Shown here in pieces: positions 3,781-37,130 of a DNA stretch of 64,000 nucleotides. A program made the position numbers and the translations under genes. The DNA is from Phylloscopus collybita (taxonomy: Eukaryota; Chordata; Aves; Passeriformes; Phylloscopidae): contig JAJNNQ010000044.1 of the NCBI GenBank assembly GCA_027886175.1, positions 248,001 through 312,000 on the forward strand. Reading direction: 5' to 3'. The notes beneath the pieces were generated by a model that was not told the DNA's origin, searched no databases, and saw nothing but the letters and a program-made list of their open reading frames with translations. Every line of letters begins with the position of its first letter. Positions within the stretch are counted from its first letter, which is position 1.

Positions 3781-3850
3781 GTGACCCCACCCCTGTGGGT
3801 GAGCCCAGCAGCTCCCGTGTTCCCCGCAGGATCAGCGGCTGTGCAGGGCC

Positions 3851-6342
3851 ATGGCCGGCCGCGGGGCCCAGCGGCCCAACGGGCACTCGCAGCCCAGTAA
3901 GATCTGCCAGTTCAAACTGGTGCTGCTGGGAGAGTCGGCCGTGGGCAAGTCCAGCCTGGTGCTGCGCTTCGTCAAGGGCCAGTTCCACGAGTACCAGGAG
4001 AGCACCATCGGCGGTGAGCGGGGATCTGGGGGATCCCAAAGGGATCTGGGGTACAGGGAAGGCTTTTTGGAAGGGTTTGGGACACCCTGAGGTGTCCCTG
4101 GGTGGCTCTGGGGACACCCTGAGGAGTCCTTGGGCAGGTTGGAGATGCAGTGAGGGTTCCCTGGGAAGGGTTTGGTAACACCCTGAGCTGTCCCTGTCCC
4201 CGCTGCAGTGTTCCTGGTGCAGTCTGTGGGTGGGTTTGTGACACTCTGGGCTGTCCCTGGCCAGGTTGGCGACACCCAGAGGTGTGCCTGGCTGGGTTTG
4301 GTGACACCCTGAGCAGGTTGGTGACTGTCCCCTGTCCCCCCAGCGGCGTTCCTGACACAGTCTGTGTGCCTGGGTGGGTTTGGGATGCACTGAGCTGTCC
4401 CTGGCTGGGTTGGTGACACAGTGATGCCTCTCTGGGTTGGTTGGTGACACTCTGGTGACACTCTGGGCTGTCCCCTGTCCCCCCAGCGGCGTTCCTGACG
4501 CAGTCTGTGTGCCTGGACGACACCACAGTGAAGTTTGAGATCTGGGACACGGCAGGGCAGGAGCGCTACCACAGCCTGGCCCCCATGTACTACCGAGGGG
4601 CCCAGGCTGCCATCGTAGTCTACGACATCACCAACCAGGTTTGGAGGGGTCCTGAGAGGTTTGGGGGTCTCGGGGGTTTTCTGAGGGGTCTCAGGGGGTA
4701 CTACTGCGGGGCCCAGGCTGCCATTGTCGTCTATGGCATCACCAACCAGGTTTGGGGGGGTTCTGAAGGGCTTGAGGGGGTTGAGGTGTCTCAGGGGGGT
4801 CCTGAGGGGTTTGGAGGGGATTTGAGGGGGATTTAGGGACTCTGGGGGGATTTTGGATTGGGTCTTAGTGGACTCGAGGGTTCTGAGGGAGCTCAGGGGA
4901 GTCTGAGGAGGGTTTGAGGGGTTTTGGGGGGCATTTGAGAGTCTCGGGTCCTGAAGGGTTTTGGGGGGCATTTCGGGGTCAATTTGGGGCCCTGGGGGGG
5001 GTGTTGTGTTGAGAGGGGTCTCGGGGGGGCCCTGAGAAGTTTGGGGGGGATTTGGAGGTTTCAGGGGGGTCCTGAGGGGTTTAGGGGGGGATTTCAGGGA
5101 GATTTGGGAGTTTCAGAGGGGTTTGGAGGGAGTTCTGAGGGGTCTCAGGGCTACTACTGGGGGGCCTAGGCTACCACCTGGTCTATGATGCCATCGCCCA
5201 CGTATTTGGGGGAGATTTGGGGGAATCCTGAGAGGTTCCAGAGTATTTGGGGAGGGGTCCCAGCCTGCAATCCCCCTCCCCAGGAGACGTTTGCCCGTGC
5301 CAGGGGCTGGGTGAAGGAGCTGCAGCGCCAGGCCAGCCCCAGCATCGTCATCGCCCTGGCCGGCAACAAGGCTGACCTGGCCAGCAAGAGGATGGTGGAG
5401 TATGAGGTCAGGGGGATTGCTGGGAATTCCCAGGGAATTGGGGAATTTACAGGGATTTTTTTTGGTATTTACAGAGATATATTTGAGGGGAGGGATTTCA
5501 TGGGCATTTTTTGGGGAATTTATGGGTTTGGGGGGTTTTTTTGAATTTATGGGGGTTTTTTGTGAATCTCCTGGTTTCTTCTTTTTTTTTTTTTTTTTTT
5601 TAATTTCTGCTCTGGATTTTTTGAGAATTTCTGAGGAGTTTTTGGGGAATTGTCTGAAGTTTTTTTGGGGGTGTTTTGGGGGATTTTTAAGAACTTTTCC
5701 CTGCAGGAAGCCCAGGCCTACGCTGATGACAACAGCCTGCTGTTCATGGAGACCTCGGCCAAGACAGCCATGAATGTCAATGACCTCTTCCTGGCCATCG
5801 GTGAGGGGCTGGCCTGGGGGGCTCGGGGGGTCTGGGGGGGCGTGGTTTGGGGGGCTCTGAGGGGTCTCTGAGGGGTTTTGGGGGTGTCTCAGAGGGGTCT
5901 GGGGGGGCTCTGAGGGCTCTCAGGGGGGTCCCAGGGGTCTCAGGGAGGTCTTTTCCAGCCCCTTCCCAGGATTTGGGGCTGGGGCCCTGTTTCTAAACCA
6001 AATCATTTGGAGTCATCTCAAACCCCCCAGAATCATCCTAAACTATTCCAAATAACCCCACATGATCCCAAATAACCCTGAATCATTCTCGGATCATTCC
6101 AAATAACACCAAACCATCCCAAATCACCCCAAACCATCCCAAACCATCCAGAATAACCCCAAACCATCCCAAACCATCCCAAATCACCCCAAAGCATCCG
6201 GAATAACCCCGAATCCCCCGTTCCAGCCAAGAAGCTGCCAAAGACGGAGCCCCAGAGCACGAGCGGGGCTGGGGGCCGGGGCCGGGGCGTGGACCTGAGT
6301 GAGCAGAGCCCGCAGGGCCGTGGGCAGTGCTGCAGCAACTGA
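3851..6342 (+). CDS. RAB5B: RAB5B small GTPase, complete coding sequence in five exons
   Basis: Rab5b is a prenylated Ras-superfamily GTPase of the plasma membrane and early endosomes that drives endocytic fusion. Coding exons are 3851-4013, 4487-4638, 5284-5406, 5707-5800 and 6227-6342. They total 648 nt, giving 215 aa, the same length as human RAB5B. The P-loop GESAVGKS is at residues 27-34. The effector-loop threonine is in YQESTIGA, switch II is WDTAGQE, guanine specificity is NKAD and ETSAK, and the protein ends CCSN for geranylgeranylation. The first coding exon starts at 3830 after tccccgcag. The N-terminus [11 protein letters not shown] differs from mammals only in the variable region, and the tail favours RAB5B over RAB5A or RAB5C. 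Both edges of exon 3 and the end of the last exon are duplicated in flanking noncoding DNA (see findings). Confidence 0.96.
4190..4516 (+). repeat. RAB5B: Tandem units carrying the RAB5B exon 3 acceptor edge
   Basis: The true acceptor is at 4485-4486. A copy at about 4325-4373 contains the same tract, the acceptor at 4342-4343 and the first 30 exon bases, differing by about one base over 49. A weaker copy has its acceptor at 4206-4207. Spacings are 136 and 143 bp. Confidence 0.85.
4589..5206 (+). repeat. RAB5B: Copies of the RAB5B exon 3 donor edge in the next intron
   Basis: The exon end at 4589-4645 ([17 protein letters not shown] plus donor) recurs at 4699-4755. That copy reads [17 protein letters not shown] and keeps the gt donor at 4750. 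A decayed copy lies at about 5150-5206. The first copy is exactly 111 bp downstream and in the same open frame as the exon. Confidence 0.88.
4640..5150 (+). repeat. G-rich minisatellite in RAB5B intron
   Basis: Degenerate units of ggggtcctgaggggtttggggggattt surround the donor-edge copies. The + strand is very G-rich with many runs of three or more G, so G-quadruplex formation is possible. Confidence 0.75.
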
Positions 6343-6620
6343 GGGATCCCAGGGGATCCCAAGGGATCCAGCCAGGATACAGCCTCGGCTGCAGCGACTG
6401 AGGGATCCCAGGGGATCTGCCAGGATCACAGCCCAAATCCAGCCGGGATCACAGCCCCCAGGGCTGCAGTGACTGAAGGATCCCAGGGGATCCACCGGGA
6501 TCCAGCCAGGATTGAACCCAGATCCAGCCTGCAGGACTGCGCCGGTGCTGCAGCGACTGAGGGATCCCAAGGGATCCAGCCAGATTACAGTGAGGATTCC
6601 AGCCCCAGTCCCAGACAGGA
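6328..6620 (+). repeat. RAB5B: Copies of the RAB5B C-terminal codons and stop in the 3'UTR
   Basis: The last coding bases tgctgcagcaactgagggatcc recur as ctgcagcgactgagggatcc-like sequences near 6391, 6461 and 6547, each followed by caggggatccagccagga. Spacing is about 60-85 bp. The repeat unit therefore includes the prenylation-motif codons and the stop codon. Confidence 0.85.
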
Positions 6621-8525
6621 TCCATCCCAGATCCCAGCCAGGATCCCACCAGATCCTGGCCCGGATCCCGGCTCCATCCCCACTCTGGGACTCTCCCCAG
6701 CACTTCTTGAAGCTTCCAAGGCTCCCTCTCAGCACCAGATCCCTCCAGGATCCTCCAGTTCCTGCCCAGCTCCACCACATCCCTCCTGGAGCCACCAGGC
6801 CCCACGTGGACACACCAGATCCCTCCTGGCTCCACCAGATCCCTTTGGATTCACCAGGTCTCACACAGATTCTCCACATCCTATCCGGCTCCACCAGATC
6901 CCACCTGGATCCTCCAAACTCCTCCTGGATCCTCCAAACTCCTCCTGGATCCTCCAGATCCTGCTGGATCCCTTTCCCAGGTCCTGATCCCTGCCCCAAG
7001 GCAGCAGGGCTGACTCGGCTGGGACTGGACTCGTGAGGATCCCTGGACTGTCCATCTGTCCCCGTGGGATCCCTGGGGCCTCGGACACTTGGATCCCTCC
7101 TGGATCCCTCCTGGATCCCTCCTGGATCTCTGCCCAAGGATCTGGGGATCCCACAGACCCCCGGGATGCATTTTCCAGGGGCCCGGCACTGATTTCTGCG
7201 GAATTTTCATCGTTCCCGCCCGTTTTTGCCCATTCCCCTCGGGGACAGCAGCTGCAGTGTCCCTGTGTCCTCTCCTGGTGGCCTCAGCTGGAGGATCCCA
7301 AGTGCCTGGGGACATCTCGAGACATTTGGGGACACTGAGGGGATCCTGCCCTGGGATCTGGGGTGGCCTTGTGGGTGACGTCCCTCACAGGGATGTCCCC
7401 ATGGTCATGGTCACCCCACAGTGATGTCCCCTCATGTCCCGACCATGGCTGTGACATCACTGTGGTCATTGCGGCCAGGGTCACCCCACAGCGATGTCCC
7501 CAATGACCCTGGCCACGGTCACCCCCCAGATGACATCCCCAGGTGATGCCGGTGGTGGCCATGATGTCCTCCTGCTGATCCAGGCCACCAGGCCACGTCC
7601 CCCAGCTGTGGTGGCCTTCATGTCCCCTGGTGATCCTGGCCCCAGTGATGTCCCCCAGCTGTTCCCAGCCATGGTGGCCCTTCAGGTGACATCCCCCAGG
7701 TGGTCCTAATGGTGGCCTCAATGTCCCCTCAGTGATCCCAGTGGCAGCCATGACGTCCCCCAGGTGTTCCCAGCCATGGCCACCCCTCAGGTGCCACCCC
7801 CGGTCGTCTCCCATTGCCCCCCAGTTTGTCGCTGTCCCCACCGTGGGGCCGTCCCTGTTTGCACTTTATGGCCAATGTCCCCTCGGTCCTGTCCCCATGT
7901 CCTCGGGGGTGGCAGCGAGGGGACAGCAAGGGGACAGCGGTGCCACCCCCCTGCCCTTTGTCCACGTTCCTTCTGGACCCTCGGTGTCCCCACCCTGTCC
8001 AGGGGACACCCAGGGTGCTGCCACCTGAGGGGGGACACCCCAACTTGGTGACACCCCAAAATTTGGGACACCTCAAAGTGGTGACACCCTGAATTTGGAG
8101 ACACCCAGAATTGTCCCCCCCAGGCACAAGGGGTGGCAGCTGTGGGGTGGAGGGACCTGGTCCCATATGAAGCCCCTGGAGACACCTTGGGGTCACCTTG
8201 GGGACATTCCCGGGGTCACTCCGGGGACATTCCCCGTGCTCCAGAGCCTTTGGAATTGGTTACATTGATGTCCCCAAAATGGTGGCCCGGCAGTCCCAGC
8301 CCTGGACCAAACGGGGACACTGCAGCTTTTGTCACTCTTTTTTTTCTTTAATTTTTCTTTTTTCCGGCTTTTTTTTCTCTGATCTTATTTCCTTTCATTT
8401 TATTTTATTTTGGTTTTTTTCCTTGCTTGGGGAAGCTCCTCCCTCGCGGTGAAATAACAATCGTGGTAACCACAACGTCGGGTCGCTGATTTACCCATGT
8501 ATTTAATGTAAAGTAAAAACCGAAC
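6343..8525 (+). other. RAB5B: RAB5B 3'UTR, probable extent
   Basis: This stretch has no gene signal. It holds gatccctcctggatcc-type repeats (6600-7150), a gtgatgtcccc repeat (7370-7800) and a T-rich region (8330-8430). No canonical AATAAA was found before SUOX. The unique stretch near 8495-8525 (gtatttaatgtaaagtaaaa) may be the 3' end with a variant signal. Confidence 0.45.
7370..7800 (+). repeat. Minisatellite (gatgtcccc / ggtcacccc units)
   Basis: Units such as cacagtgatgtccccaatgaccctggccatggtc recur at roughly 30-65 bp spacing in the RAB5B downstream region. Confidence 0.7.
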
Positions 8526-8677
8526 AAGGACAAAAAACAAAACAAAACCAAAAAACCAAGGAAAAAAAATCCCCAAAACCCCAAAATTCCCAACTTTTTG
8601 TGTGCTTAGGGAGGGGACGCGGCGACAACACCGGCGACATCCGGTGCCAGCAGCCGCTGCCAGATCGCGGCCCTGCC

Positions 8678-8694
8678 CTGATAACGCTTATCAG
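8678..8694. promoter_or_regulatory. Perfect palindrome of two GATA sites
   Basis: CTGATAA-CGC-TTATCAG is a perfect inverted repeat with two head-to-head GATA-factor motifs, about 320 bp upstream of the inferred SUOX first exon. It stands in sequence that is otherwise not repetitive. Confidence 0.55.
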
Positions 8695-8789
8695 AGCTGG
8701 CAGCTGCCTGGCGGCTCCTGTTTGTTGCCGCTTTTTGCCATTTTTTCCCGTTTTCCCCCAAATTCCCACCGGGAAATCGGGGAGCGGCG

Positions 8790-9015
8790 CTGCCCCTTTA
8801 GATCCGCGTGGCTGCTTCGAGACCCCCGGGTGCTTGGCGTGGTGTTGCCCCTTTAAGGCGGCGCTGGGTGGGGCCCACTCCGAGGGAGCCACGCCCGCTT
8901 GGCCCCGGCTAAAGTAAACAGGAGGCGTGGTCAGAGGTGTCGGGGCCACGCCCATCGCCCCCTCTTAAAGCGGCCGCGCCCGCAGGGACGTCGCGGGACC
9001 GGAACCGTTACGCAG
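8790..9015 (+). promoter_or_regulatory. SUOX: SUOX CpG-island promoter and candidate noncoding exon 1
   Basis: CpG-rich sequence with repeated ccacgccc GC/KLF boxes (near 8890 and 8947), a gacgtcgc CRE-like site at about 8987 and NotI-type cggccgc. A candidate donor (cgcag|gtgcgc) lies at 9015/9016. No TATA box is seen. The role is inferred from composition and from position before the SUOX coding exons. Confidence 0.55.
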
Positions 9016-9019
9016 GTGC

Positions 9020-9660
9020 GCGGCGGCGACAACCGGGACCGGGGTGGGAATGGGGACAACAGAGACCGGGACCGGGATGAGAATGCAGCGAAAAAACCGG
9101 GATCGGAGTGGAGCTGAGGGTGGGGGGAGAGCCGGGACACTACTGAGGCTTGGGGGAAAACAACGGGGACCGGGGGGCTTTAGGGACAACCGGGACTGGA
9201 CTGGGCCTACGGCGGGGACAGCCGGGACCGAGATGGGGCCGGGAGCAGGAAGAACTGGGACAGGGATGGGGATGGGGAGGCGACAACCAGGATGGGGTTG
9301 AGAGAAGGGATAGCAGGGACTGGCATGGGCTTGGGGACCGGGACCTAGCTGGGGCTGGCACCGACCGGGCTGAGGGGGCAGAACCGGGACCGGGCTGTGC
9401 GAAGGGACAACGGGAATCGGGATGGGGCTGAGTGGGGACAACCGGGGACCGACCGGGCTGGGAACAACCGGGACAGGGCTGGGGTTGCGAAGGGGAAGAA
9501 CCAGGACCAGGCTCGGGGGGTGGGGGACAACCGGGACCGGGCTGGGACCGGGTGGGGACACAACGGGCACAGGGCTGGGTCTGGCGCGGGGGGAGAACCG
9601 GGACCGGGCCAAAGCTGGGGGGACGTAACGGGGACCGGGCTGGGGCTGCAGGGACGGAAG
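9020..9660 (+). repeat. Minisatellite in SUOX intron 1 (gggacaaccgggaccgggctgg)
   Basis: About 20 degenerate copies of a GC-rich 25-35 bp unit. It creates long antisense open frames, which I reject as genes. Confidence 0.85.
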
Positions 9661-9804: not shown

Positions 9805-12800
9805 ATGCTGCTGCTCCGGGCTATGGCCGGGCGCAGGTAGGAGCGGCCCCGCTGGGGCTCCCCGTGTCCCCCGCTGTCCCGGGACCGCTGTGACTCCGCT
9901 GTTCCCGCAGGCTCGCGCCGCTGACGCAGCTGCCCCGTGGCTGCTCCCGGTTGGCCGCCGGTAGCGCGGCCCCGGGGGGACACCGGGGAGAGGCCCCGGG
10001 GAAACAGCGCGGGGCGGCCCCGGTGCTGGCAGCGCTGCTCGGGCTCGGGGCCGTCCTGGCCTACGGAGAGCGGCGGCGGAGGGTGAGCGACACCGCGGGG
10101 GACACCGGGGGTGATGGCACCGAGGGTGGTGGCACCGGGGGGGAGGTGACACTTCGGGGTTCTTCCCCGGGACGGGGCCACCGGGGGTGGGGTTGGATCC
10201 CTGCGGGAGGCGGCACCTGAAGGGGCGGATCCCGGTGAGGGGTGACACCGGGACAGCGGGAACCCGGGAGGGGGATGGCACCGGGGGGCGGATCCCGGGG
10301 CGGGAAGGTGGCCCCGGGAAAGGGGTGACACCGGGACAGCGGGAACCCAGGACGGCGGTGGCACCGTGGGAATGATCCCGAGGAAGGGGTGGCTCCGGGA
10401 CAGCGGAATCCCGGGGAAGGGGTGACGCCAAGACAGGGTACACCCGGGCGGAGGTGGCACTGGGACAGGAGGATCCTGGGGCACAGAGGTGGCGTCGAGG
10501 AGTGGATCCTGGAGAGGGGGTGGCACCGGGGGGCGGATCCTGCGGCACGGAGGTGACACCGGGATCCCGGGGAAGGGGTGACAGCAGCACCGGGGGCCCG
10601 GCGGGGTTCCCGCTGACCCTCCCGGTGCCCGCAGATCGCCCAGGCCGCCCGTGCCCCGCCGGCCCCGCAGTACCCGCGCTACACCCGCGCAGAGGTGGCG
10701 CAGCACCGCACCCCGAGCGACCGCGTGTGGGTCACGCACGGCACCGACGTCTTCGATGTCACCGATTTCGTGGAGCTGCACCCGGGGGGACCGGACAAGA
10801 TCCTGCTGGCGGCCGGCGGGGCCCTGGAGCCCTTTTGGGCTCTCTACGCCGTTCACAGCCAGCCCCACGTGCTGGAGCTGCTCCGCGACTACAAAGTGGG
10901 CGAGCTGAGCCCCGAGGACGCCGCGCCACCCCCGGCGGACACCGAGGACCCGTTCGCCGGGGACCCCCCGCGCCATCCGGCACTGCGGGTGAACAGCTTG
11001 AAACCTTTTAACGGCGAGCCGCCCCCGGAGCTGCTGACCCAGAGCTTCCTGACGCCCAACGAGCTTTTCTTCACCCGCAACCACCTCCCGGTGCCTGCCG
11101 TGGAGCCGGGCTCGTACCGGCTCCGCGTGGAGGGTCCCGGTGGCCGCGCCTTGTCGCTGTCGCTGGCGGAGCTGCGCCAGCGCTTCCCGAAGCACGAGGT
11201 GACGGCCACGCTGCAATGCGCCGGGAACCGCAGGTCCGAGATGAGCCGCGTCCGGCCGGTCAAGGGGCTGGCCTGGGACATCGGGGCCATCAGCACGGCG
11301 CGCTGGGGCGGGGCGCGGCTCCGGGACGTGCTGCTGGCCGCCGGTTTGGGCGACAAAAGCGGCGAGTGGCACGTGTGCTTCGAAGGGCTGGACACGGACG
11401 CTTCGGGGACGCCGTACGGAGCGTCCATCCCGCTGGAGCGGGCGCTGAGCGCCGAGGCCGAGGTGCTGCTGGCCTACGAGATGAACGGGCAGGAGCTGCC
11501 GCGCGATCACGGCTTCCCGGTGCGCGTCGTGGTGCCCGGCGTGGTCGGGGCGCGGAGCGTGAAGTGGCTGCGGAGCGTGGCGGTGTCGCCGTCCGAGAGC
11601 CCGAGCCACTGGCAGCAGAACGATTACAAAGGGTTCTGCCCCTCCGTGGATTGGGATTCCGTGGATTTTGGGTCGGCGCCGGCCATCCAGGAGCTGCCGG
11701 TGCAGTCGGCGATCACCGAGCCGCGGCCCGGGGCGGCCGTGCCCGCCGGGGAGCTGACGGTGAAGGGATACGCGTGGAGCGGAGGAGGAAGGGAGGTGGT
11801 CAGGGTGAGCGGGGGAACGGGGATGGACGGGAGAGGGGCGGGGAAAGGGAGACGGGGAACGGGAGATGGATGGGAAAAGTGGGTGGAATCACCGGGATGA
11901 GGGGATGGAACTGCTGGGGGAATGTGGGCGGATTCACCAGGGAAAATGGATGGACTTGTGGGGAAAAGTGGGGGAGCGGGCAGAAAAAAACCAGAGTGGG
12001 ATCACCAGGAAAACCGTGTGGGATCGCTGGGAAAAGCAGATGGAATGGCTGGGAAAAGTGGGTGGCCGTGACGGGAGGGGTGTCTGAAATTAGTGGGAAA
12101 AGTGGGTGGAATTCTGGTGGAATTCCTGGAAACTTGGATGGAATGGCTGGGAAAACCAGATGGAATCAGTGGGATAAGTGGGTGGAATTTATATATATAT
12201 ATATAATATTTAATAATTCATATTGAGATATACTACATAATAATAGACTAATATAGCAATCTAATGTCTAATTTAATAATGATCAACACAGCAGTATGAT
12301 AGATAATGCCATAAGTAATATAACACAATAATTTGGTGATTTACTACTGATCAATATAAGTATATAGCATAGCAAAATAAATAATACAGTAATAAATACA
12401 ACAATAGCACAATAATCGGCACACTGCCCCATGCTAATTAGCAGTAATTATTTGTGCCCATTACTCCCTGGCAGGTGGACTTGCCCCTGGACAGGGTATA
12501 GCAATAATTTAGTAACCATCAAAATATCTGTATAGCAATACAATATAAATAATACAACACTATCATAATCAGCACACTGCTTCATGCTAATTAACGCTAA
12601 TTACCCGTGCCCATCCCTTTCTGGCAGGTGGATATGTCCCTGGATGGGGTACAGCAATATAATAATTTAATAATGAGCAATATAATAATTTACTAGTAAT
12701 AATCAATATATCCATATAGCATAGAATAACACAAAATTAAGCACACTGCTCTATGCTAATTAACACTAATTACCCATGCCCATCACTTCCTGGTAGGTGG

Positions 12801-13689
12801 ACGTGTCCCTGGATGGGGTATAGCAATATAACCATAAAATAATAGAGTAATAAAAAATATTATTATAATAATATAATATAGTAATAATACCACAATAACA
12901 CAGCAATAAGCACAATGCTCCGTGCCAATTAATGCTAATTACCCATGCCCATCGCTTCTGGCAGGCAGGCATGTCTCTGAATGGGGTATAGAAGTCTTAA
13001 TAATTTAATACTCATCAGTATATCCATATGTTAACACAATAATAATACAATAATAACACAATAATAACAAACATGATGCTCTGTGCTAATTAACGGTAAT
13101 TACCCGTGCCCATCCTCCCTGCCAGGTGGACGTGTCCCTGGACATGGGGGTATAGCAGTCTAATAATTTACATGACCAATGTATCGGTATAGCAACACAG
13201 TACAATAACACAATAATAACACATTTATGTGGGGGTCTATGCTAATTAACGCTAATTAGCGTTGTTTATATGGCTCCCTGGCAGGTGGACGCGTCCTTGG
13301 ACGGGGTATAGCAGTCTAATAATTTAATAATGATCAATGTATCGGTATAGCAACACAATATAATAACACAATAATAACACAACGCTCTATGCTAATTAAC
13401 GCTAATTAGCATTGTTTACATGACTCCCTGGCAGGTGGACGTGTCCCTGGACGGGGGCCGGACGTGGCGCGTGGCCGAGCTGCTCCCGCGGCCGGAGCGG
13501 GGCCGGGGCTGGGCCTGGGCGCTGTGGGAGCTGCGGGCGCCGGTGGCGGCGGGGACGCGCCTGGAGCTGGTCTGCAAGGCCGTGGATCGCAGCTACAACG
13601 TGCAGCCCGACAGCGTGGCGCCCATCTGGAACCTGCGCGGGGTGCTGAGCAACGCCTGGCACCGCGTCCCCGTCACCGTCACCCGCTGA
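9805..13689 (+). CDS. SUOX: Sulfite oxidase, complete coding sequence in four exons
   Basis: SUOX is the mitochondrial intermembrane-space enzyme that oxidises sulfite to sulfate, the last step of sulfur amino acid breakdown, passing electrons to cytochrome c. Exons are 9805-9836, 9911-10082, 10635-11804 and 13435-13689, totalling 1629 nt (542 aa; human 545). Codons 1-68 give a basic targeting sequence and a hydrophobic segment ([13 protein letters not shown]). A cytochrome b5 domain follows, with heme ligands His117 (LHPGG) and His142 (YAVH). The molybdopterin domain carries the Mo-ligand cysteine, Cys263, in [12 protein letters not shown]. The C-terminal dimerisation domain runs from VDVSLDGG to [14 protein letters not shown]. 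The large exon 3 ends GREVVR|gtgagc. All junctions keep frame, and the catalytic residues are intact. The last exon is flanked on both sides by partial copies of itself. Confidence 0.96.
10090..10610 (+). repeat. Minisatellite in SUOX intron 2
   Basis: Units such as gggacagcgggaacccggg and ggggtggcaccggggggcggatcc, about 30-60 bp and degenerate, fill the intron between the transmembrane-segment exon and the catalytic exon. Confidence 0.75.
11805..12190 (+). repeat. Degenerate tandem repeat at start of SUOX intron 3
   Basis: Units such as ggaatggctgggaaaagtgggtggaatcaccggga, about 30-45 bp, follow the exon 3 donor. An abrupt change to AT-rich sequence comes at 12188. Confidence 0.7.
12190..13434 (+). 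repeat. SUOX: AT-rich 150-169 bp tandem repeat carrying decoy SUOX exon 4 acceptors
   Basis: Each unit holds an AT-rich block (aataatttaataatgatcaata...), the phrase atgctaattaacgctaatta, a ctccctggcag acceptor and the first ~22 bases of SUOX exon 4 (gtggacgtgtccctggacgg), then returns through ggtatagca to AT-rich sequence. Exon-like starts fall at 12475, 12628, 12797, 12965, 13126 and 13285, and the true exon at 13435. Spacings are 153, 169, 168, 161, 159 and 150 bp. Every unit keeps an AG dinucleotide at the acceptor. The AT-rich composition is foreign to this GC-rich gene. Confidence 0.93.
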
Positions 13690-13925
13690 GGGACCCGCTG
13701 GGGACAGTCGTCGGGGCATCGGGGACATCGGAGCATTGGGGACATCAGGGATCCTTGGGGCCCATCTGGAACCTGCGTGGGGTGCTGAGCAACGCCTGGC
13801 ACCGTGTCAGTGTCACTGTCACCTGCTGAGTTTCACCATTGGGGACATCAGGGACAGCGGGGGCATTGGGGACACAGGGGGGTCCTGAGCAATGTCTGGC
13901 ACTGTGTCCCTGTCCCTGTCACCCC
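13621..13925 (+). repeat. SUOX: Copies of the SUOX C-terminal codons and stop in the 3'UTR
   Basis: The exon end at 13621-13689 ([16 protein letters not shown]... stop) recurs at 13761-13829, exactly 140 bp later, reading [22 protein letters not shown] and a stop. A third decayed copy (gtcctgagcaatgtctggcac...) covers about 13881-13923. Linker units of ggggacatcgg separate them. Confidence 0.9.
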
Positions 13926-13954
13926 CGAGTGCCAGGAAATCAATGGGATCTCAG

Positions 13955-15462: not shown

Positions 15463-15499
15463 GTGAGAGCGCGCGGTGTGCGGGGAGCGGCAGGGCCGG

Positions 15500-23403: not shown

Positions 23404-26400
23404 CCCCGAGCCCTTCCTAGCCCCGTTCCCGGTGCAATTCCTACTTTTCCTCATCCCCATCCCACCAAAATCTTTTTCCCACATTCCCACATCCCAGCCC
23501 CATTCCCGGCTCCGTTCCTAGTTCCTGACTTCTGGGGATGCTCCATTTCCCATCCCCATCCCGCTAAAATTCTGGGATCCCACGGAAAAACCGGGGTCCC
23601 TCCCTCGTTCCCTCCTCCCTTCCCACATTCCCATCCCTCCTCCTCCCCTCCCTCTCCCATTCCTGAGCTGGATTTTCCCTGGATTCCAGGAATCTGCTCT
23701 TCCTGGAAGGTGAGCGGCTGCGTGCGCCCCGCCAGCGCCGCCCTGCGCCCTCCCGGGATCCCGCGCTGCTTCCCGGGAATCCCGATCCAGGGATCTCCGG
23801 GATTCCTCCCGCAAGGTACGGCACCGTTCCCGGCACCAGAACATCCCGGGAGAATCGGAATTCCGAGACAATTCAACTCGAGGGGTGCGGGGAAAAGGCG
23901 CCGCCGCCGCCGCGCTGGGAGGGGATTGAAGGGATTTCAGGAATTCCCGACTGGAATGAGGGAGGAGGGAAAAGCGGGAGAGCTTTGGCCACTCCCCGGG
24001 GTGGGATTTAGGGATTTAGGGATTTGGGAGGAGCCGGAGATTCCCGGAGCGCCTCCGGGATTTGGGGATTTGGGGCTGCTGGAACTGTCGGGGTTGGGAG
24101 CGCAGCGAGCTGCGAGCAGGATGAGGCTCCAAGAGATTCCCAAAGGTCGGTGCCGGGGATTTTGGGGATTCGGGATAGCCGGAGATGGAATTTAGGGATC
24201 CCGGAATTCCCCTTTTCCATGGGATAAAGCCCTTGGAGTTGGATCAGAGCTGGGGAGGATCGGGATGTGGCTCCGGGAGATTCCCAAAGGGAATTTGGAG
24301 TTTGGTATTTGCCCCTGGAGTAGCTCTGAGGGCTTTAGGGATCCTGGAATTCCCCCTTTCCATGGGATAAAGCTCTTGGAGTTGGATCAGAGCCGGGCGG
24401 GATCGGGATGAGGCTCTGGGAGATTCCCAGATGTTGGTCCCAGGGGGTTTGGGACCAGGGATTTGCCCCAAATCCCAAAATTAGGATTTAGGAATTCCCT
24501 GTGGAATTTAGGGATTCTGGAATTCCCTGTCCCAGGATAGAGGTATCCATGGAGTCACATCCAGCTCCAGAGGGAAATTTGAGAATTCTGGGATTCCCTG
24601 TGCTGGGAGAGAGGTGCCCATGGATTCAGATCCGGCTCCAGAGGGAAATTTGGGAATTCTGGATGGGACTTTAAGGATTCTGGAGAAGAGAATTTGGGAA
24701 TTCCGGAATTCCTGAGCTGGGAAAAGACCCAGCCCCACTGAGGACCCTTTGGAGAGGGAATTTTCCCTCTGGATTTGCCCCTGGATCAGCTCCGGAGGGG
24801 AATTTGGGAATTCTGGAGGGGAATCTAAGGATCCTGGAGAGGAAAATGTGGGAATCCTGGAATTCCCAAGCTGGGAAAGGCCAGACCCTTGAAAAATCCC
24901 GATTTTTCCCTGGGGATTCACCCCTGGAATATCTGGAATATCCTGACCCCCCTAGCTGCCCCGGGATCAACATTCCCAACATTCCCGAGGAGCGGGAACG
25001 GCTCCTCCCGGCCTTTCCCAGGTTTTTCCCAGGAATTTGGGAATTTTCCAACACCCTCCCCACCTCGGCAGAGTTTGGGAAACTCCAGAGCCGCTCCCAG
25101 GGCGATTTTCCCAGGAGTTATTCCCGGCCAAAAATTCCAGCTGGGCCGGAAAAGTTTGGAAATCGCACTCCCAGCTGCTCCAGAGGGAATTTCCCGTCCC
25201 AAAATTCCGGCTGTTCCCACGGAAGGAGGAATTCAGGATGGGGGGAGGGAATTTGGGATGGGGGGTGGAGATTTGGAATTGGGGACAAATTTAGGATGGG
25301 AAGGGATTTGGGATTGGGGGGGAAATTTGGGATCAGGGGAGGAAATTTGGCAATTCCACATCCCGGGAAAGGGGCCTGGAGCAGGGGGGAGTTTGCATCT
25401 CTTTGGATCACTGGAATGGAATTGGGAATGGAACAAATCCCAGCCCTTCCCAAATCCAGGGGGAGGTTTGAGATTGGGAATTCCCCTCTGGAATTAAATT
25501 CCTGCTCCTCCAGCACCTTCCAAATCCAGGAAGGGGCTCTGGGATCCAGGGTCTGGAATGGGAACAAATCCCAGGGTCTGGAATGGGAATAAATTCCTGT
25601 CCCAGCCCTTCCCAAATCCAGGTGTGGGGATTTGGGATTGGGAATGGGGGGAAATCCCGGCCTCAGCCCCTTCCCTCCCAGGGGGAGGTTTGGGATTGGG
25701 AATTCTCCCTGGGATTTCCCCTCTGAGCCCATTCTGTGTTTCCCCAAGGCCGTGGGGATTCCCCCCTGGAGCAGGAATTCCCTCCTGGAGCTGCCCGGAG
25801 CCCCCCCAGCCCCCGCTCATCCCCACACTCCCCTGGTGAGTATTCCCAGAATTCCCAGAGTATTCCTGGAATATCCCAGAATTTCCCCCTTCAGCCCTCA
25901 CTCTCCTAGTGAGTGTTCCCAGAATTCCACAAATATTCCCAGGATTCCCCCCCCCCCGAGTATTCCCAAAATTCCCAGATATTCCCAGGATTCCCCTCCT
26001 CAGTTCCCACTCCTGTCTCCCCATTTCCCCAGTGAGAATTCCCATAATTCCCAAAATTCCCAGGCAGGAATTGCAGCTCCCACTCCCTGAGGCTTTTTTT
26101 GCCAAGGGAAAAAGAGTAAAGGAGAAAACTGGGACTGGGATGAGATAAATCCCAGACTCTGCGATTGCAGGAGCAGAAACCCCTGGAATTCTCTCCCATC
26201 CCTCATTTTTTATCCCCCATTTGTCCTGGAAAAGCCCTGGGAGCTCTGGAATCTCAGCATTCCAGAGGGTGAGACCGTTCCCACTCTTGGAATCCACTGG
26301 AATGTGGAAAACTCTTGGAATTCGCTCCAGTTTCTCATTTTTTTAATCTCCTTTTTGTCCTGGAAAATACCTGGAAAACCTGGAATCTCAGCATTCCAAG

Positions 26401-29400
26401 GGGTGACACCTCTAGGATTCCGATGGAATGTGGGAATTCACTGGGAATTCACTCCCAGCCCTCATTATTTCCCTTATTTTTGTCCTGGTAAACACCTGGG
26501 AGCTCTGGAATCTCAGCATTCCAACGGGTGACTCGGCTGGAATTTGGGACAATCCCTCTGGAATGCCATCTGGCCTTTCCCCCTTTCCCAGGAATTCCCG
26601 AGGGAGGGGAGGAGAAACTCCGAAAAAAACAAAACCATTCCCAGAGGGAATGAGGGGGAGAGAGGGGAAAATTCCCAGGAGAGGGAGTGGAATCCTGCCG
26701 GGAACTTGCCACTGGAATTCCCTGGGAGTGCCTCGGGCAGGGGGAGGGTCCTGGACAGAATTCCAGGGGTTTTCAGGCAGCGGGGGAAGGAATCCCAACC
26801 CTGCTTCCCAAATCCCTTCCATGATTCCCTTTCCCGAACCCCCTCCCCAGTTCCCTCTCCCCAATTCCCAAATCCCTTCCCTGATTCCTGAATCCCCAAT
26901 TCCCGAATTCCCAACTCCTCAAATCCCTTTGCTAAATCCCTTCCCGAATTCCCGAGTCCCTGATTCCCCCCGGCTCTTCCCGGGAGCCGCATTCCCGACA
27001 TTCCTGAGCTCTCCCTTCCCAACATTCCTGGCAGGAATTTCCCCCCAGAGCTTTCCCAAGGAATCTCCAGCATGTTCCTGGTGTTTTCTGGGATCTGCCG
27101 AGCCGGTTGAAATTTGGGAAGTGTTGGGAATTGGGAAGAGCCTCAGGCTGGGGAGAAATACGGGAATTTTTCCTTGGATCCCGCTTTTTTTCCCACCCTC
27201 CATCCTGGGCTGGATCAGGGCTCCAGGAGCAGGTGCCTGTCTGGAATTTTCCTGGGAATTTTCTCTTGGTGAAAAATGGGAAGAAAATTCCCAGTGGGAT
27301 CCTTAAATCCTGGATTTTGGCCCTTTCCAGGGGTTTTCCCAGGGTTTTTCCCCTCAGGAAGAGGGAGGAATTCTTTGGGAATGAGGAGAGGGAGATTTTT
27401 CCCAGCAATTCTTTTCCCTGAGTTTTTTTTTTTTGTTTTGTTTTTGTTTTTTGTTTTTGTTTTGTTTTGTTTTTTGTTTTTTTGTTTTTTTTCCCCAGGA
27501 ATTTTCTTCCCCCTGGAGTTTTTTTCCCTGAGTTTTTAGGGTTTTTTTTACCCAGAGTTACTATTCCCATGGCTTTTTCTTGGAGTCTTTTCCCATGGAG
27601 TTTTTCCCAGGAGTTTTTTTCCTGGAGGGTTTTTTTTTGGGATTTTTTTTTCCTGGGATTTTTTTCCCAGAGCTTTTTTTCCTGGGACTTTTTTTTTTTT
27701 TCCCAGGGAATTTTCTCAGGGACTTTTCCCAGAGATTTTTTTTCCTGGGAGCTTTTCTCAGGGAGATTTTCCCAGGGAGTTTCTTATCCTGGAGGTTTTT
27801 TTTTTTGTTTGTTTTTCCTGGAGTTTTTTCCCAGGAGCGTTTTCCCAGAGGTTTTTTCCAGGGAGTTTTCTTGGAGTTTTATTCCAGATTTTCTTTTCCT
27901 GGGAGTTTTTTTCTGGCATTTTTTCCCCCCACAATTTTCCAGGGTTTTTGAAGGATTTTCCAGGCATTTTCTAGGGGTTTTCCAGAATTTTCCAGGTGTT
28001 TTCCAGGGGGTTTGAGGGATTTTCCAGGAGTTTTCCAGGGGTTTTCCATGTGTCTGGGATGGAGAAACCTTAGTGAGTATTTTTGGGGAGACATTCCCAT
28101 GGGAAGAAATCCCTAAAAACCCAAAAATTCCTTTTAGGACCAATACCTGGGAATAAATCTATGGATAAGCCCCAGAATTCCTTTTTTAGGACCAATTCCT
28201 GCTCAATTCTTGGGAATAAATCCCAGGATAAAACTCCCTGAAGGTTTTTTAGGACCAATTCCCATGGGAATAAATCCCTTCCCACCCCAGAACTCCTTCC
28301 AGAACCCCAGGAATCCCTCCCCAGCCCTGGAATTTCCCCTCTCCCCATCCCATTTCCCCCCCATTCTTCCCTCTCTCCATCCCTGAAATTTTCCTTCTTA
28401 TTCCATTTTCTCCCCTCTCATCCCGTTTTTCCTTCTCCCTATCTCATTTTGCCTCTCCCCATCCCATTTTCCCTCTTATCCCACTTCCCGCTCTCCCCAT
28501 CCCATTTTCCCTCTTATCCCATTTTTCCCTCTCCCTACCCCTGGAGTTTTCCCTCTTATCCCACTTCCCCCTCTCCCCATCCCATTTTCCCCCTCCCCAC
28601 CCCTGGAATTTCCCCTCTCCTCACCCCCTTTTTCCCTCCCTTCCAGCCAATTCCATCAAGGTGGAGATGTCCTCAGATGAGGAGTCCCAGGGCCGGCTGC
28701 TGTCCCAGGAGGACAAGGAGGGGCTGGGCGAGGATTCCCTGCCGGAGCCTTTTCCTGAACAATTCCCGGAGCCTTTCCCGGAGCCGCATTCCCCGGGCGG
28801 GATTCGCCTTCCCAACGGGAAACTCAAATGTGACGTCTGCGGGATGGTCTGCATCGGGCCCAACGTGCTGATGGTGCACAAGCGCAGCCACACCGGTGAG
28901 ATCCCGGGAAAAAACGGGAGGAAAAGGGGAAAAAATGGGAATTCTGGGAGCTGGGAATGGGATCAGAGCCCTGGGAATGGGATCTGGACTGTGGGGATTT
29001 GGGAATTCTGGGGCTGCGTCGTGCTCACAGTGCACAAGCACAGCCGCACCAGTGAGATCCCGGGAAAAACGGGAATTTTGGGATCCCATCCCCTCCATCC
29101 CAGCACAGAGCAATCCCTGGTTTGTGTTTGTGGTGCCAGCAATGATTCCCATTGAGAATTCCGGGATTTTTCCAGGAGAACGGAAAAGAGTTTAGGGCTG
29201 GGATTAGGATTGGGGTTTGGGTTAGGGTCAGGGTTGGGTTTAGGGCTAGGTTTGGGTTTAGGGTTAGGGTGCGGTTTAGGGTCAGGGTTGGTGTCAAAGA
29301 TTAGGATTGGAATTGGGATTTGGGTTTAGTTTAGGGTTGGGTTGAGGTTTCAGTTGGGGTCACGGTTAGGAGAAGGGTCAGGGCTGGGTTTGGGGTCAGG

Positions 29401-32400
29401 GCTGGGTTGAGGGTAAGGGTTGGGTTGAGGGTCAGGGCTGGGTTGAGGGTCAGGGCTGGGTTGAGGGTCAGGGCTGGGTTTGGGGTCAGGGCTGGGTTGA
29501 GGGTCAGGGCTGGGTTGAGGGTCAGCGTTGAGTTTAAGGTTAGAATGAGGTTTAGGGTTTGGCTTAGGGTTAGGATGAGTTTTAGCCTCAGGGTTGGGTT
29601 TAAGGTTCAGATGAGGTTTAGGGTCAGGGTTGGCATCAGGATTAAGGTTAGGATTGGGTTAGGGTTTGGTTTAGGAGTTGAGTTTTTGGGGTTGGAATTG
29701 TTCCTATGGGGAGTTCCAGGATTTTTCCAGGAGAACGGCCGTTCCAGTGCCAGCAGTGCGGGGTTGGGGTTATCTGGGAGCCATTCCCATGGGGATTTTT
29801 GGGAATTCCAGGAGAACGGCCGTTCCAGTGCCAGCAGTGCGGGGTCGGGGTTATCTGGGAGCCATTCCCATGGGGATTTTTGGGAATTCCAGGAGAACGG
29901 CCGTTCCAGTGCCAGCAGTGCGGCGCCTCCTTCACGCAGAAGGGGAATTTGCTGCGCCACATCAAGCTGCACTCGGGGGAGAAGCCCTTCAAGTGCCCCT
30001 TCTGCTCCTACGCCTGCCGGCGCCGCGACGCCCTCAGCGGGCACCTGCGCACGCATTCCGGTGGGTGCGGGGTCGGGAATGTCGGGAACGGGGTGGGAAC
30101 GGGGCGGGAAGGGGTTCTGAGGTAAGTGAGGCCAAGATTTGGGTGGTTCAGGGGGAGTTTCAGGGGGTTGGTGTGGGTTTAGGGGGGAGAGTTCCAAGGT
30201 TTTCCAAAGGTTTTTGCAATGGTGGAGCTCAGTGGGAGATGGGAGATGGGAATAGGGAAATCCTAAAGAAATGCAGGGCAGAGCCTATGGAAAAGCTCCA
30301 TCCCACTGATCCCATTGATCCCACTGATCCTGTTGATCCCAACCCATCCCATCCCATCGATCCCATAGATTCCATCCCATAGATCCCATAGATTCCATCC
30401 CATAGATCCCATAGACATTCCATCAATCCTGTGGAATGTCACTCTGGGGCTCTGTTCCTGTCCCCTTCTGGGGTCCCCCTGTCCTTGGAGGGGACAATTC
30501 CCAGATTTCTCAAAGAGTTTTCTCGAATCCCTATGGATCTCAATCCCATTTCAGGCTGGATCTGCCTCCTGCTCCAGGGATTTTCCCTCATGAATGTCCT
30601 TTAGGAGATCCCAACGAGCCCAAATCCCAGGATTTTCCCTCATTTTGAGTTCTGTGACCCTTGTGGATCCCAATCCTATTCCCGGAAGTTCCTGGTTCTG
30701 GATCTGCCTCCTGCTCCAGGGATTTTCACCCATTGGGGTCCTTCAGGGGATCCCAAATTATCCAAATCCTGGGATTTTCCCTCATTAATGTCCTTCAGAG
30801 AATCCCAAAGTGCTCAAATCCCAGGACTTTCTCTCATTTTTGGGCTCTGGGATCCCTGCAGATCCCATTCCCAGCCTGGATCTGCCTCCTGCTCCAGTGA
30901 TTTTTCCCTCACTGGGATCCTTCAGAGGATCCCAAATTATCTAAATCCTGGGATTTCCCCTCATTTTTGGGCTCCATTCATACCCATTCCCAGCTCCTTG
31001 GAATTCTTCATTCCAGAGGCCGAGAACTGGGACAATTCCCTCCCCATCCCATCAAACCCAACCTGGGCTTTTTTTGGGGGAGGTGATGGAGGAAATCCCA
31101 AATTTTCCATGGATTCTGGAGGAGGAGGAGCCCTGCATTCCCAGCATTCCCAGGAGGGGCTCCTGGCTTTCATCTGCTTCCCCAAAAAAATCAGGGATTA
31201 AGGATCTGACATCAAAGGAGCCAAAAATTCCCCCAGGATTTCCTTCTCATCCCAGCCTGGAAAATTCCAGCCCTGGAGCTTCCCAGTTTTTCCATGGCTT
31301 GGAGAAACTTCTGGAATGTAGCACCCAGTGGAGTTCCCCAGGGCTGATTCCAGTTCCCAATTCCTGATCCCGATTCCTGGTGCTGATCCCAATTCCTGAT
31401 CTCAATTCCCAGTTCCTGATCCCAGTTCCTGGTGCCACTCCCAATTTCTCCCACATTCCTCCCCATTTCCCAATTCCTGTTGATTTCCTTCCACATTTCC
31501 CAATCCCCCCCCCCATTCTCCAGATCACCTATCCCACATCCCAAACCCCAGATGCTGATTTCCGTGTCCATTCCCTGTTTCCCAGTCTCCTCCCCGACGG
31601 TGGGCAAGCCCTACAAGTGCAGCTCCTGTGGCCGCAGCTACAAGCAGCAGAGCAGCCTGGAGGAGCACCGGGAGCGCTGCCACAGCTTCCTCCGGAACCT
31701 CCCCGCGGAAAACCCCGCACAGACAGGTCTGGCCGGGAAAATCCTGGGAAAATCCTGAATCCAGAACCCCCCCGGGGGCTGGGGAGGACGGGGGTGGGGG
31801 GGAATCCCAGAAACAGGTCTGAGGAGTTGTGGGATCGTGGGGCTTTTCCATGGATAAAGGGTGGGGAGGGAGGGGATTGGGATCCTTTTCCATGGAAAAA
31901 GGGTTGCAAATGAGAGGATTGTGATCCCAAATTCATGGAGAAAGGGTGGGGAGTCAGGGATTGTGGATTGTGATCCTTTTCTGTGGGGAATTGTGATCCC
32001 AAATCCATGGGGAAATTGTGACCCTTTTCCATAGGAGGATTGGAATCCTTTTCCATGGGGGATCCTGATCTTTTTCCATGGAAGAAGGGTGGGGAAATGA
32101 GAGGATTGTGATCCCAAATCCTTGGAAAAAGCTGAGCAGTGAGGGACTGTGATGTTTTTCCATGGAAAAAGGTTGGGAAATGAGGAGATTGTGATCCTTT
32201 TCCATGGAAAAAGGGTGGGGAGGGAAGGGATTGTGATCCTTTTCCATGGAAAAAGAGTAGGAAATGAAGAGATTGTGATCCTTTTCTGTGGAAAAAGGGT
32301 TGGGAATGAGAGGATTGTGATCCCAAATCCATGGAGGAAGGGTGGGGAGTGAGGGATTGTGGATTGTGATCCCAAATCCATGGAAAAAGGGGGGAAATGG

Positions 32401-35400
32401 GGGATTGTGATGCTTTTCCATGGAAAAATGGGTGAGAATAGAGGGAACTGTGCTCCCAAATACATGGAAAAGGGGTGGGAAGTGTTGGGAATGTGCTCCC
32501 AGAGCTGTGAGTCGATGCCCCCACCACAGATCCCAAATTCCTGACTCCAAACCCCCATTCCCAGAACTTCCCCGAGCCTTTTCCACGAGCTGAGGTTGGG
32601 AGCTGCAGAGAGGCAGAATTTTCCTGGGAAAAAGCCAAAATTGGGACGTTCCCATCTCCTCATCGAGGGCCCTTGGAAGGACCGGGATTTTCCGTATCAG
32701 GGAACATTCTCAGTTGGGATTCCCAGGATCAGGGCCCATTTCTGAGCAAGATTCCCAGGAACAGGGAAGATTCCAGAGCAGAATTTTTGGGAGCAGGGGA
32801 CATTCCTGATTGGAATTTCTGGGCTCAGGGGCCATTCCAGGGCTCAGGGACCATTTCAGAACAGGATTTTTGGGATCAGGGCCATTCCTGAGCGGGATCC
32901 CCCTGCTCAGGGGCCATTTCAGAACAGGATTTTTGGGATCAGGACCATTCCTGAGCGGGATCCCCCTGCTCAGGGGCCATTTCAGAACAGGATTTTTAGG
33001 ATCAGTGACCATTCCCGACTGGTGTTCCCGGGCACCACTCCAGACCGGGATTTTTTAGACTCACGACCATTCCGGATTGGAATTCCCGGGCGCAGAGGCC
33101 TCTCCAGGGCGCAGGGGCCATTTCAGAGCAGGATTTCCGGGATCAGGAACCATTCCCGACCGGGATCTCCCGGCTCAGGGGCCATTTCAGAGCAGGGTTT
33201 TTAGCATCAGGCCCCATCCGCAGCCGCTTTCCCCGGGGCAATGGCGGGGCTGGCCAAGCGCTCCCAGGCCTGAAGCCGCCTCCTCTCCCCCCTCACCGCG
33301 GCAGGAGCGGGCCCCGCTGGAAGCAGGAGGGATCCGGGAGCGGCTGCCGGCGCCGCGGGGACACGCACGGGGTAAGCTCGGGCTCCGGCAGCCGCTCCCA
33401 GGGGCCCTCCCAGCCCGCAGCTCCCGTCCCGCCCCACTCATCCCGGGTATTTTTTTTTTTTTTCCCTTTGTTTGCGTTCTGCAGGGGAGGAAATCCGGGA
33501 GCTGGACATGGTGCCTGAGGCGTTGCTGCACCCCGAGCGCCCCACCTTAATCGAGCGCCTGGCAGGCAGCTTCACCAAGAGGAAACGCTCCACGCCGCAG
33601 AAATTCGTGGGTAAGGAAAAGATGGAAAAGCTGGGGGGGAAAAAAAAAAAAATTCTCCCGGCGGGAGATGAGGGGCGGCCTCAGGGATGGCCGGGTGTGG
33701 AGGGGGGAGCGGCGCGGGAAAGGGAATCCCCACACAAAGGTCTCAAAATGGGCTTCAAATTAACAAAAACAACAACAAAAAACCCCACCCCACCCGCCCC
33801 CCCCCCAAAAAAAACCCGCCAAAAAAAACCGCCAAAAAAACCCCAAAAAACCCCCCCCAAAAAAACCAACCAAAAAAGCCCAAAACAACAACAACAACAA
33901 AAAAAAGCAAAACCAAAAAACCCGGGTCAATTTGAAAAATATAAATTCAAATTTAAAGTAAAGTGACTCTTTAAGAAAAGGCTTTAATTAAAAAAAAAAA
34001 AAAATCCCCTCACATTTTTTTAAAAAAATCTTTATGTTAAAAAATACCCACAAAGTAACCAAAAATCCTCGAATCAGCAAAATCCCAAGGGAAACGCATC
34101 ATGCCCCAGAAATTCGTGGGTAAGGAAAAGATGGAAAAGCTGGGGAATGGGGAAAAAAATTTTCCCGGTGGGAGATGAGGGGTGCTCTCAGGGATGGCCG
34201 GGTGTGGGGAATGGGAATCCCTACACAAAGGCCTCAAAATGGGCCTTAAATTCACATAAAACCTCCTCACATTAAGAAAAAAAACCCCTCCTTAAATTTA
34301 AAAAATCCCCCCTCAAATTAACAAAAAGCCCTCATCTGAAAAATCCCCCCTCATATTTAAAAAGACTCCCTTAAATTAACAACCCCCTCCCAAAATTAAC
34401 AAAAAACTTTCAAACTAACAAAGAAACCCCTCAAATCAACAAAAACCCAGATGAAATGCTCCAAGCTCCAGAAATTTGTGGGTAAGGGGCTCAAAATATC
34501 AAATAACTGGCTCAAATAAAAAAACCTCCTCAAATTAAAGAATTATACCCTGAAATGAAAAAAAAAATCACCTTGAATTAAAAAAAACCCTCAAATAAAA
34601 AATACTCCTTAAATTAAAAAAATTCTGTTCTCAAATTAACAAAAAAGCCCCTCAAATTAACAAAGCTCCCTCAAAAAATAATCCCTCAAATTTTAAAAAA
34701 AACCTTTATAGAAGCCCCTCAAATTAACAAAACCCCCCCTTAAATTAAAAGAAACCCACTGAAATTAAAAAAAGGCCTTAAATTTAAAAAACCCTCTTCA
34801 AATTAAAAAATCCCCATCTTTAGTTAAATAAATCCTCAAATTAACAAAACTCCCCCTCAAATGAAAAAAAATCTCAAAATTTCTCCTCTCAAATTAACAA
34901 AAACACCCCTTAAATTAAAGAAATCCGCCCTCAAATTAACAAGAAGGCCTTAAGTTAAACTCCTCAAGTTAAAAAACTCCCTTAAATGAACAAAAAAGCC
35001 TCAAATTAACAAAAAAAACCCCTCAAACCAACAAAACTCCCTCATATTAAAAAAAAAAACCTCGTGGAAAAAAATACCCCTCAAAGTAAAAAACCCCTTG
35101 AATTAAAAACACCCTCAAATTAAAACAATCTCTCCTCATATACAAAAAATACCCCCTTAAATTACAAAAAACAAGTTGAAATTTAAAAAAAACCCTGAAA
35201 TGAAAAAAAATCCCCTCAAATTAAAAAAACAAAACAAAACAAACAAACAAACAAAAACCCCACAAAAAACAACAACAACCCATCAAATTAAAAGAAAACC
35301 CTAACATTAAAAAATTCCCTCATCAGACACCGGCTGTTAATGGAATTCTGGGGGGCAATCCCCCCACCTCTCTCCCCTCCCCCCACCCCCAGTGAACTCT

Positions 35401-36831: not shown

Positions 36832-37130
36832 GGTCGGAAAGATCCCTCCCCACCCCTGCCTCCAGTTCCCCGATTTTCCCCTTCTTCCCCCTTGGCAAAC
36901 ACTAAATGTGAGGCTGGGAAATTCCCCCGTCTCAAATTCCCCATTTTTCCCTGATTTTTCTTCTCCCATTTCCCCTCCCACATCGTGCCCAAAATGTGAG
37001 GTTGGAAAAACATCTCCCCTGCCTCAAATTCCTGTTTTTCCCCCTCGATTTTCCCCTCTCATTGCCCCTCCCTCATTGTGTGCCATGAGCACAAAATGTG
37101 AGGTTGGAAAAAAAATCCCCCCACCCCAGC
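36800..37130 (+). repeat. IKZF4: Copies of the IKZF4 stop-codon region in the 3'UTR
   Basis: The stop context aagatatgaggtcggaaa (TGA 36829-36831) recurs as aaatgtgaggctggg, aaatgtgaggttgg and aaatgtgaggttgg with TGA at about 36909, 36996 and 37099. Spacing is about 80-103 bp. Upstream parts of the exon (cacatcgtg, gagcacaa) are also kept in the later copies. Confidence 0.85.

Follow-up and report, generated by a model that had tools for sequence, protein, structure and literature searches.

The stretch of DNA analysed here, hereafter the window, comprises 64,000 nucleotides from the songbird Phylloscopus collybita (contig JAJNNQ010000044.1 of assembly GCA_027886175.1, positions 248,001 to 312,000) and carries on its + strand the end of CDK2 followed, in order, by RAB5B, SUOX, IKZF4 and RPS26. 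In RAB5B, SUOX and IKZF4, exon edges have been copied locally and in tandem into the adjacent introns and 3ʹ flanks. These copies, which we call echoes, are direct, span the exon border, and combine approximately 10-70 bp of exon with a splice site or a stop codon.

All five genes were modelled manually, with exons bounded by AG/GT sites, and these models provide 39 exon edges. Two further IKZF4 exons (b and c) were added later, once avian proteins revealed them, which raised the edge set to 43. The best solved relatives of the RAB5B product are Rab-5A and Rab-5B chains, and the SUOX exon 3/4 junction corresponds exactly to residues 381/382 of chicken sulfite oxidase (1sox). Among solved chains, the lowest E-values for the zinc fingers (ZFs) of IKZF4 are those of different zinc-finger proteins, and Helios, Ikaros and Eos rank high too; the name therefore rests on the protein search, in which the top rows among the best 120 are IKZF4/Eos proteins and the first 13 are passerines by name (e.g. 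95% identity to Aphelocoma coerulescens). The corresponding SUOX search is led by seven passerine rows, with 15 passerines by name among the best 120.

Copies of exon edges in three neighbouring genes

The 30 exonic bases at each edge were compared with the neighbouring non-coding DNA over a distance of at most 1200 bp, using 200 dinucleotide shuffles per edge. For exactly the nine edges named in an earlier sequence-only reading of this DNA (whose exon numbers differ slightly from ours), 0/200 shuffles reached the observed score, with z values from 5 to 19, and under a combined criterion the same 9/39 edges pass while 30/39 fail. These edges are the exon 3 acceptor, exon 3 donor and exon 6 stop of RAB5B, the acceptor and stop of the last exon of SUOX, and the ZF1-exon donor, ZF2-3-exon acceptor, next-to-last-exon donor and last-exon stop of IKZF4. 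The observation that repeat units contain true exon edges at eight or more places is thus borne out, as are the sides assigned to the copies, with acceptor copies lying upstream of the true exon and donor or stop copies downstream. A tenth edge, the donor of IKZF4 exon c at 25835, has a copy that ends at 25908 and passes only with queries that straddle the border. The echoes and two of the true exons are located as follows.

4190..4373, + strand: RAB5B exon 3 acceptor echoes, e1 and the older e2
4487..4638, + strand: true RAB5B exon 3, with AG/GT borders; the joined coding sequence matches Rab-5B (2hei)
4698..4809, + strand: RAB5B exon 3 donor echo, a 111-bp tandem unit; Tandem Repeats Finder (TRF) row 4587-4809, period 111
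within 6390..6574 (6390, 6465, 6549), + strand: RAB5B stop-codon echoes; true stop edge at 6331-6342
12392..13434, + strand: SUOX intron 3 array, in which the exon 4 acceptor and the first ~22 bp of the exon are echoed six times
12475, 12628, 12797, 12965, 13126, 13285, + strand: starts of the six SUOX acceptor echoes, in units of ~150-170 bp
13435..13689, + strand: true SUOX exon 4, which closes the array as its final unit and begins at the equivalent of chicken residue 382
13760..13829, + strand: SUOX stop-side echo, the final 70 bp of coding sequence with the stop codon; 90% identity, 83.8 bits
25895..25928, + strand: IKZF4 exon c donor echo, exon-like over only ~13 bp; absent from the sequence-only reading
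29023..29070, + strand: IKZF4 ZF1-exon donor echo, one copy, exon-like to 29051
29716..29892, + strand: IKZF4 ZF2-3 acceptor echoes, 81-bp unit; TRF row 29725-29923
34089..34487, + strand: IKZF4 next-to-last-exon donor echoes, ending at 34119 and 34480, with GTAAGG kept in both
within 36904..37104 (36904, 36992, 37094), + strand: IKZF4 stop-codon echoes, the weakest family (score 14, 0/200 shuffles)

All seven echoed splice edges are direct tandem copies of the coding-exon part in the adjacent intron, and at six of them the alignment from the 30-base test reaches to within one base of the border. In RAB5B, acceptor echo e1 is exon-like at 4344-4373 and carries an acceptor tract (4325-4343) identical to the true tract, and the older e2 has its acceptor AG at 4207-4208. 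The donor echo of the same exon consists of 52 exon-like bp (4698-4749; 88% identity over 52 bp) followed by the donor GT, is in frame and remains open for 37 codons. An older remnant of this donor lies near 5150-5230. The RAB5B stop echoes reside 3ʹ of the coding region and consequently are not intronic.

Each of the SUOX acceptor echoes reads into a stop if spliced, and the stop side of this gene has an older remnant near 13881-13930. The exon-like parts of the acceptor echoes are 75% identical to one another when pooled, and the adjacent last 20 intronic bases are 73% identical, a pattern of divergence that offers no clear indication of constraint on these copies. The intron that holds them is mostly AT-rich (GC 0.21-0.38 in 6/9 bins of 200 bp).

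The IKZF4 ZF1 donor echo is found 156 bp downstream of the true donor and is in frame and open. The 81-bp unit at the ZF2-3 acceptor is present in 2.5 copies with a 99% match (31/31 identical in the blastn-short alignment), and its acceptor echoes, exon-like from 29731 and 29812, likewise keep the reading frame and are open, over 81 and 162 bp. The next-to-last-exon donor echoes occupy the region from 34 to 35 kb, which is AT-rich (GC 0.34). A long degenerate TTAGGG-like array that resembles telomeric repeat (TRF periods 6, 36 and 54) is also present at 29192-29675, in the intron between ZF1 and ZF2.

The sequence-only reading had described these repeats as minisatellites. That description suits them only in part: 2/39 borders lie at least 15 bp inside a TRF array, and the remaining copies are older or wider spaced.

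Exon borders and the surrounding non-coding DNA

When one criterion is applied throughout the gene block, echoes are found for 9/39 edges (acceptors 3/19, donors 3/15, stops 3/5), for 117 of 400 random non-coding points, and for 10/37 of the 30-base non-coding segments that adjoin the borders. Exon interiors score 2/27 at 30-60 bp from an edge, with both positives in exons that have an echoed edge nearby, then 0/25 at 60-100 bp and 0/48 beyond, which gives 0/73 for interior positions at least 60 bp from an edge (30-base queries). Edges therefore match random non-coding DNA (p=0.46; splice edges alone 6/34, p=0.17) and differ from deep exon interiors (p=4e-5).

Other designs lead to the same outcome. 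With exons b and c included, 10/43 edges compare with 105/400 random non-coding points (Fisher p=0.86), a count that includes the RPS26 exon 3 donor (a C-rich run by eye, not deemed an echo) and excludes IKZF4 exon c. Queries that straddle the border score at 10/41 edges in each of two versions, compared with 130/400 (p=0.38) and 117/400 (p=0.59) of the random points; both tens include exon c, and one has the SUOX exon 3 donor instead of the SUOX stop. A same-stretch control, in which pseudo-edges were drawn from the same non-coding stretches under three query and flank settings, gives 9/37 versus 54/222 (p=1.0), 9/37 versus 92/222 and 9/35 versus 89/210, the last two each with p=0.07 towards fewer. 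Deep exon interiors in these settings score 2/63, 0/58 and 0/56. In none of the seven comparisons do edges exceed random or same-stretch non-coding points.

The sequence-only reading had also proposed an overlay of TRF arrays on displaced exons. Run with circularly shifted exons, this overlay yields 2/39 borders inside arrays where 9.6 are expected, and a proportion of 0.9995 of 2000 shifts reach at least two; borders are thus found inside arrays less often than expected, not more. The further claim that expansions begin at exon borders beyond chance is not sustained by any of these counts, and anchoring in GC-rich exon edges is not required, because AT-rich sequence makes up the 34-35 kb region and the larger part of SUOX intron 3.

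The echo background is regional. TRF arrays cover 34% of non-coding DNA at 326-43514 and 4.8% of coding DNA, as compared with 4.9% at 45-64 kb, and echoes are detected at 29% (117/400) of non-coding points in the gene block versus 3% (9/300) at 46.3-62.7 kb. This sharp shift of character follows RPS26 and extends over 45000-64000. Within that stutter-free part of the window, a trinucleotide repeat at ~53500-53580 translates, depending on frame, into consecutive C, A, Q or S residues, and minus-strand open reading frames near 58.7-62 kb may encode a PAK-type kinase, judging from a motif.

These observations are very probably best explained by local tandem duplication of DNA (sequence or exon stuttering) throughout the non-coding parts of a songbird gene cluster rich in repeats, with exon borders most likely being overrun at the background rate rather than serving as special targets. 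About one third of the non-coding DNA from CDK2 to RPS26 is tandem repeat by TRF, and some of the duplicated units span an exon border. A duplication of this kind would leave one complete exon and would deposit an edge copy, with its splice site or stop codon, in the intron or 3ʹ flank. Selection would be expected to tolerate such border-spanning copies, as the gene stays intact, and to remove duplications within exons. The duplication step itself might be replication slippage, unequal exchange or template switching, which would look alike here. Edges that behave as ordinary non-coding DNA, together with a signal that fades inside exons, are what blind tandem duplication combined with selection on intact exons predicts. 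Splicing is not needed, because stop-side edges, which have no splice sites, are echoed as well (3/5). That stop codons are copied, that the direct copies include flanking intron or 3ʹ sequence, and that the echoes show no clear constraint all point to a process at the DNA level that is blind to splicing, as does an edge rate close to that of any non-coding DNA in the window.

Several points weigh against this explanation. The sample comprises 43 edges from one window that was picked for having echoes, and the five stop-side edges are too few for their apparently high rate (3/5) to be judged. Two of the 63 deep interior points also scored when 20-base queries were used. When all 118 intronic bp of the SUOX unit are compared, the echoes are 58% identical to one another, versus 75% for the exon-like part; we put the lower figure down to poor alignment of an AT-rich stretch, although the exon-like part might alternatively be conserved to some extent. 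The molecular step is presumed, with microhomology at junctions judged by eye only, and ongoing expansion is likewise a conjecture.

Possible splicing of echoes, and SUOX intron 3

Echoes might instead be retained as functional alternative splice sites that generate isoforms, which we regard as very unlikely. Echo sites can equal the true ones, as for RAB5B acceptor echo e1 (48/49 bases) and the IKZF4 ZF2 acceptor (46/46 bases). Moreover, the nearest echo lies at a multiple of three for 4/7 splice edges, and three of these are open (111, 156 and 81 bp). However, with seven cases such frame counts are indistinguishable from 1 in 3, the divergence of the SUOX echoes reveals no clear constraint, and use of a SUOX echo would remove the C-terminal region.

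Passerine gene models provide one good case and two weaker cases of apparent echo use. The tail of Sylvia borin SUOX 'isoform 2-T2' matches an echo in the window (tblastn E=3.6e-5 at 12625-12681, 14/19) and also aligns at 13282-13347. The end of Cinclus cinclus SUOX isoform X4 is compatible with an echo but is too short for significance (best match to the array or exon E=0.5). The SUOX tails compared were those of all 15 passerine rows among the best 120. In one IKZF4 model, from Hirundo rustica, the end of the ZF1 exon is present twice, the second copy apparently following a frame shift in the first. Isoforms of this type would reflect RNA evidence in annotation pipelines. The idea that echoes offer a route to new splice isoforms thus gains these cases, but they represent annotation and not reads. 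Among the best 120 IKZF4 rows, none carries an insert of at least 6 residues at the ZF1/ZF2 junction, and among the best 120 RAB5B rows, few of which are birds, no insert resembles the 37-residue echo; two fishes and a spider have inserts where exons 3 and 4 join, and these are unlike the echo.

Sylvia borin proteins are 89% identical to those of the window in IKZF4 and 87% in SUOX, and the SUOX repeat unit would therefore either predate the split of the two species or have formed twice from the same sequence. Three finch SUOX models (P0144, P0147 and P0151) continue past the exon 3 donor into intron sequence (RVSG...), and so the species concerned have the same intron start. Another model (P0145) reads intron-like sequence into exon 4.

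SUOX has four coding exons in the window, and its intron 3 (11805-13434) separates the codons that correspond to residues 381 and 382 of the chicken protein. We take exon 6 of human SUOX to be its last exon. Three coding exons are reported for the human gene, and codons 159 and 401 share exon 6 (PMC8139553). Given three human coding exons against four here, intron 3 is probably absent in humans, and the extra intron was probably either gained on the way to birds or lost in mammals. One SUOX contig that resembles gecko (P0211, with Gekko at 90% as its nearest named relative) reads through the junction, as it would if there were no intron at that place, but this contig may be RNA.

Birth of intron 3 by AGGT tandem duplication was considered and rejected, since comparison of the 5ʹ end of the intron with the downstream exon start, and of its 3ʹ end with the upstream exon end, gave no end similarity (p=0.65 and p=1.0, 500 shuffles). 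A separate purine-rich match at 11827-11875, between the end of exon 3 and the start of intron 3 (score 17, 0/500 shuffles), may represent either an ancient donor echo or low-complexity sequence.

The human exon 6 data, together with the isoform tails of Sylvia borin and, weakly, of Cinclus cinclus, suggest one further scenario, which we consider unlikely. Intron 3 may have arisen in the bird or archosaur lineage, within a stretch that mammals keep as a single exon, and stuttering at its acceptor could have maintained a long-lived array of spare acceptors, some of which songbirds might splice at the cost of the C-terminal region. If so, stuttering would even now give rise to isoforms, and perhaps to introns as well.

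Relation to exon stuttering in chicken

The phenomenon is already named and published, and the window represents a passerine case of it. Hron et al. 2026 (Genome Biol Evol, PMC12954441) described sequence or exon stuttering on chicken dot chromosomes, with 236 affected introns in 115 genes, 190 of these introns being on dot chromosomes. More than 90% of the sources lie within one base of an exon border, the median copied exon length is 36 bp, lengths vary highly among chickens, and alternative splicing is regarded as a potential outcome (PMC12954441). As in that system, the echoes are imperfect tandem copies of a lateral exon part with its donor or acceptor in the adjacent intron, with a source at the border, units of tens to hundreds of bp, intact coding exons and repeat-filled introns (PMC12954441). 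The heavy tandem-repeat content of stuttering introns is likewise seen in the gene block, at the TRF coverage given above.

There are also differences from the chicken study (PMC12954441). In addition to the host being a passerine, 3/10 echoed edges here are stop-codon edges in the 3ʹ flank, which lie outside an exon-versus-intron screen, and the SUOX unit is common to two passerines, whereas the paper stresses differing repeats in orthologous introns. Its main text does not name RAB5B, SUOX or IKZF4 (a statement that excludes the supplementary list of 115 genes), and the parts considered mention local expansions in other birds with no named cases.

The published score rule calls for a blastn-short match of at least 20 bp and at least 42.1 bits in the adjacent intron (PMC12954441). 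By this rule 3/15 introns are positive (RAB5B introns 1 and 2, and IKZF4 intron 2 of that set), as is the SUOX 3ʹ flank; the other 12/15 introns, including SUOX intron 3, and the other 4/5 flanks are negative. The proportion of 3/15 compares with 190/5572 introns on chicken dot chromosomes, for a nominal P=0.013 that excludes IKZF4 exons b and c and is not a fair test, because the window was picked for this feature.

This comparison, biased as it is, together with the presence of ten echoed edges in one 40-kb block, could be taken to mean that exon borders are preferred starting points, with expansion seeded by conserved GC-rich edges or by splice-linked processes such as R-loops or RNA-templated repair. 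We find this very doubtful, as edges show no excess in any comparison, TRF overlap with borders falls below expectation, stop-side edges are echoed too and two of the arrays are AT-rich. Border seeding was accordingly rejected for this window with 30-base edges, straddling queries, same-stretch settings and TRF circular shifts alike. Assembly error through collapsed or duplicated read segments, which the 99% identity of the IKZF4 81-bp array might suggest, is extremely improbable, because the other families are visibly diverged and hence old, the SUOX unit is common to the window and Sylvia borin, the ZF1 exon-end copy likewise recurs in another species' gene model, and the PHF8 intron structure in chicken was verified in raw nanopore reads (PMC12954441).

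In the potato RdRp case (PMC4974935), a border-spanning tandem duplication similarly moved splice signals to a new place, but a new intron was made there, whereas the copies described here lie inside existing introns or 3ʹ flanks. The genes of the window also recall the GC-rich 'hidden' genes of birds, which are hard to sequence and assemble (PMC4539667, PMC6792250), and the beginnings of those two abstracts do not mention exon-edge copies. Among the matches listed, titles and abstract beginnings offer no description of such copies in birds besides the chicken study (PMC12954441). SUOX, IKZF4, RAB5B and CDK2 are absent from the main text of the MicroFinder paper, as are CDK2, IKZF4 and ERBB3 from that of the complete-chicken paper, in which SUOX and RAB5B were not looked up.

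The present analysis therefore adds modestly to the published account by providing a passerine case, stop-side copies in 3/5 genes, a test of edges against their background, and a SUOX array shared between species. It extends the 2026 chicken discovery to a songbird and reveals that copying affects stop-codon edges in addition to splice edges. Moreover, the shared SUOX array and an annotated echo isoform make it testable whether cells put such debris to use.

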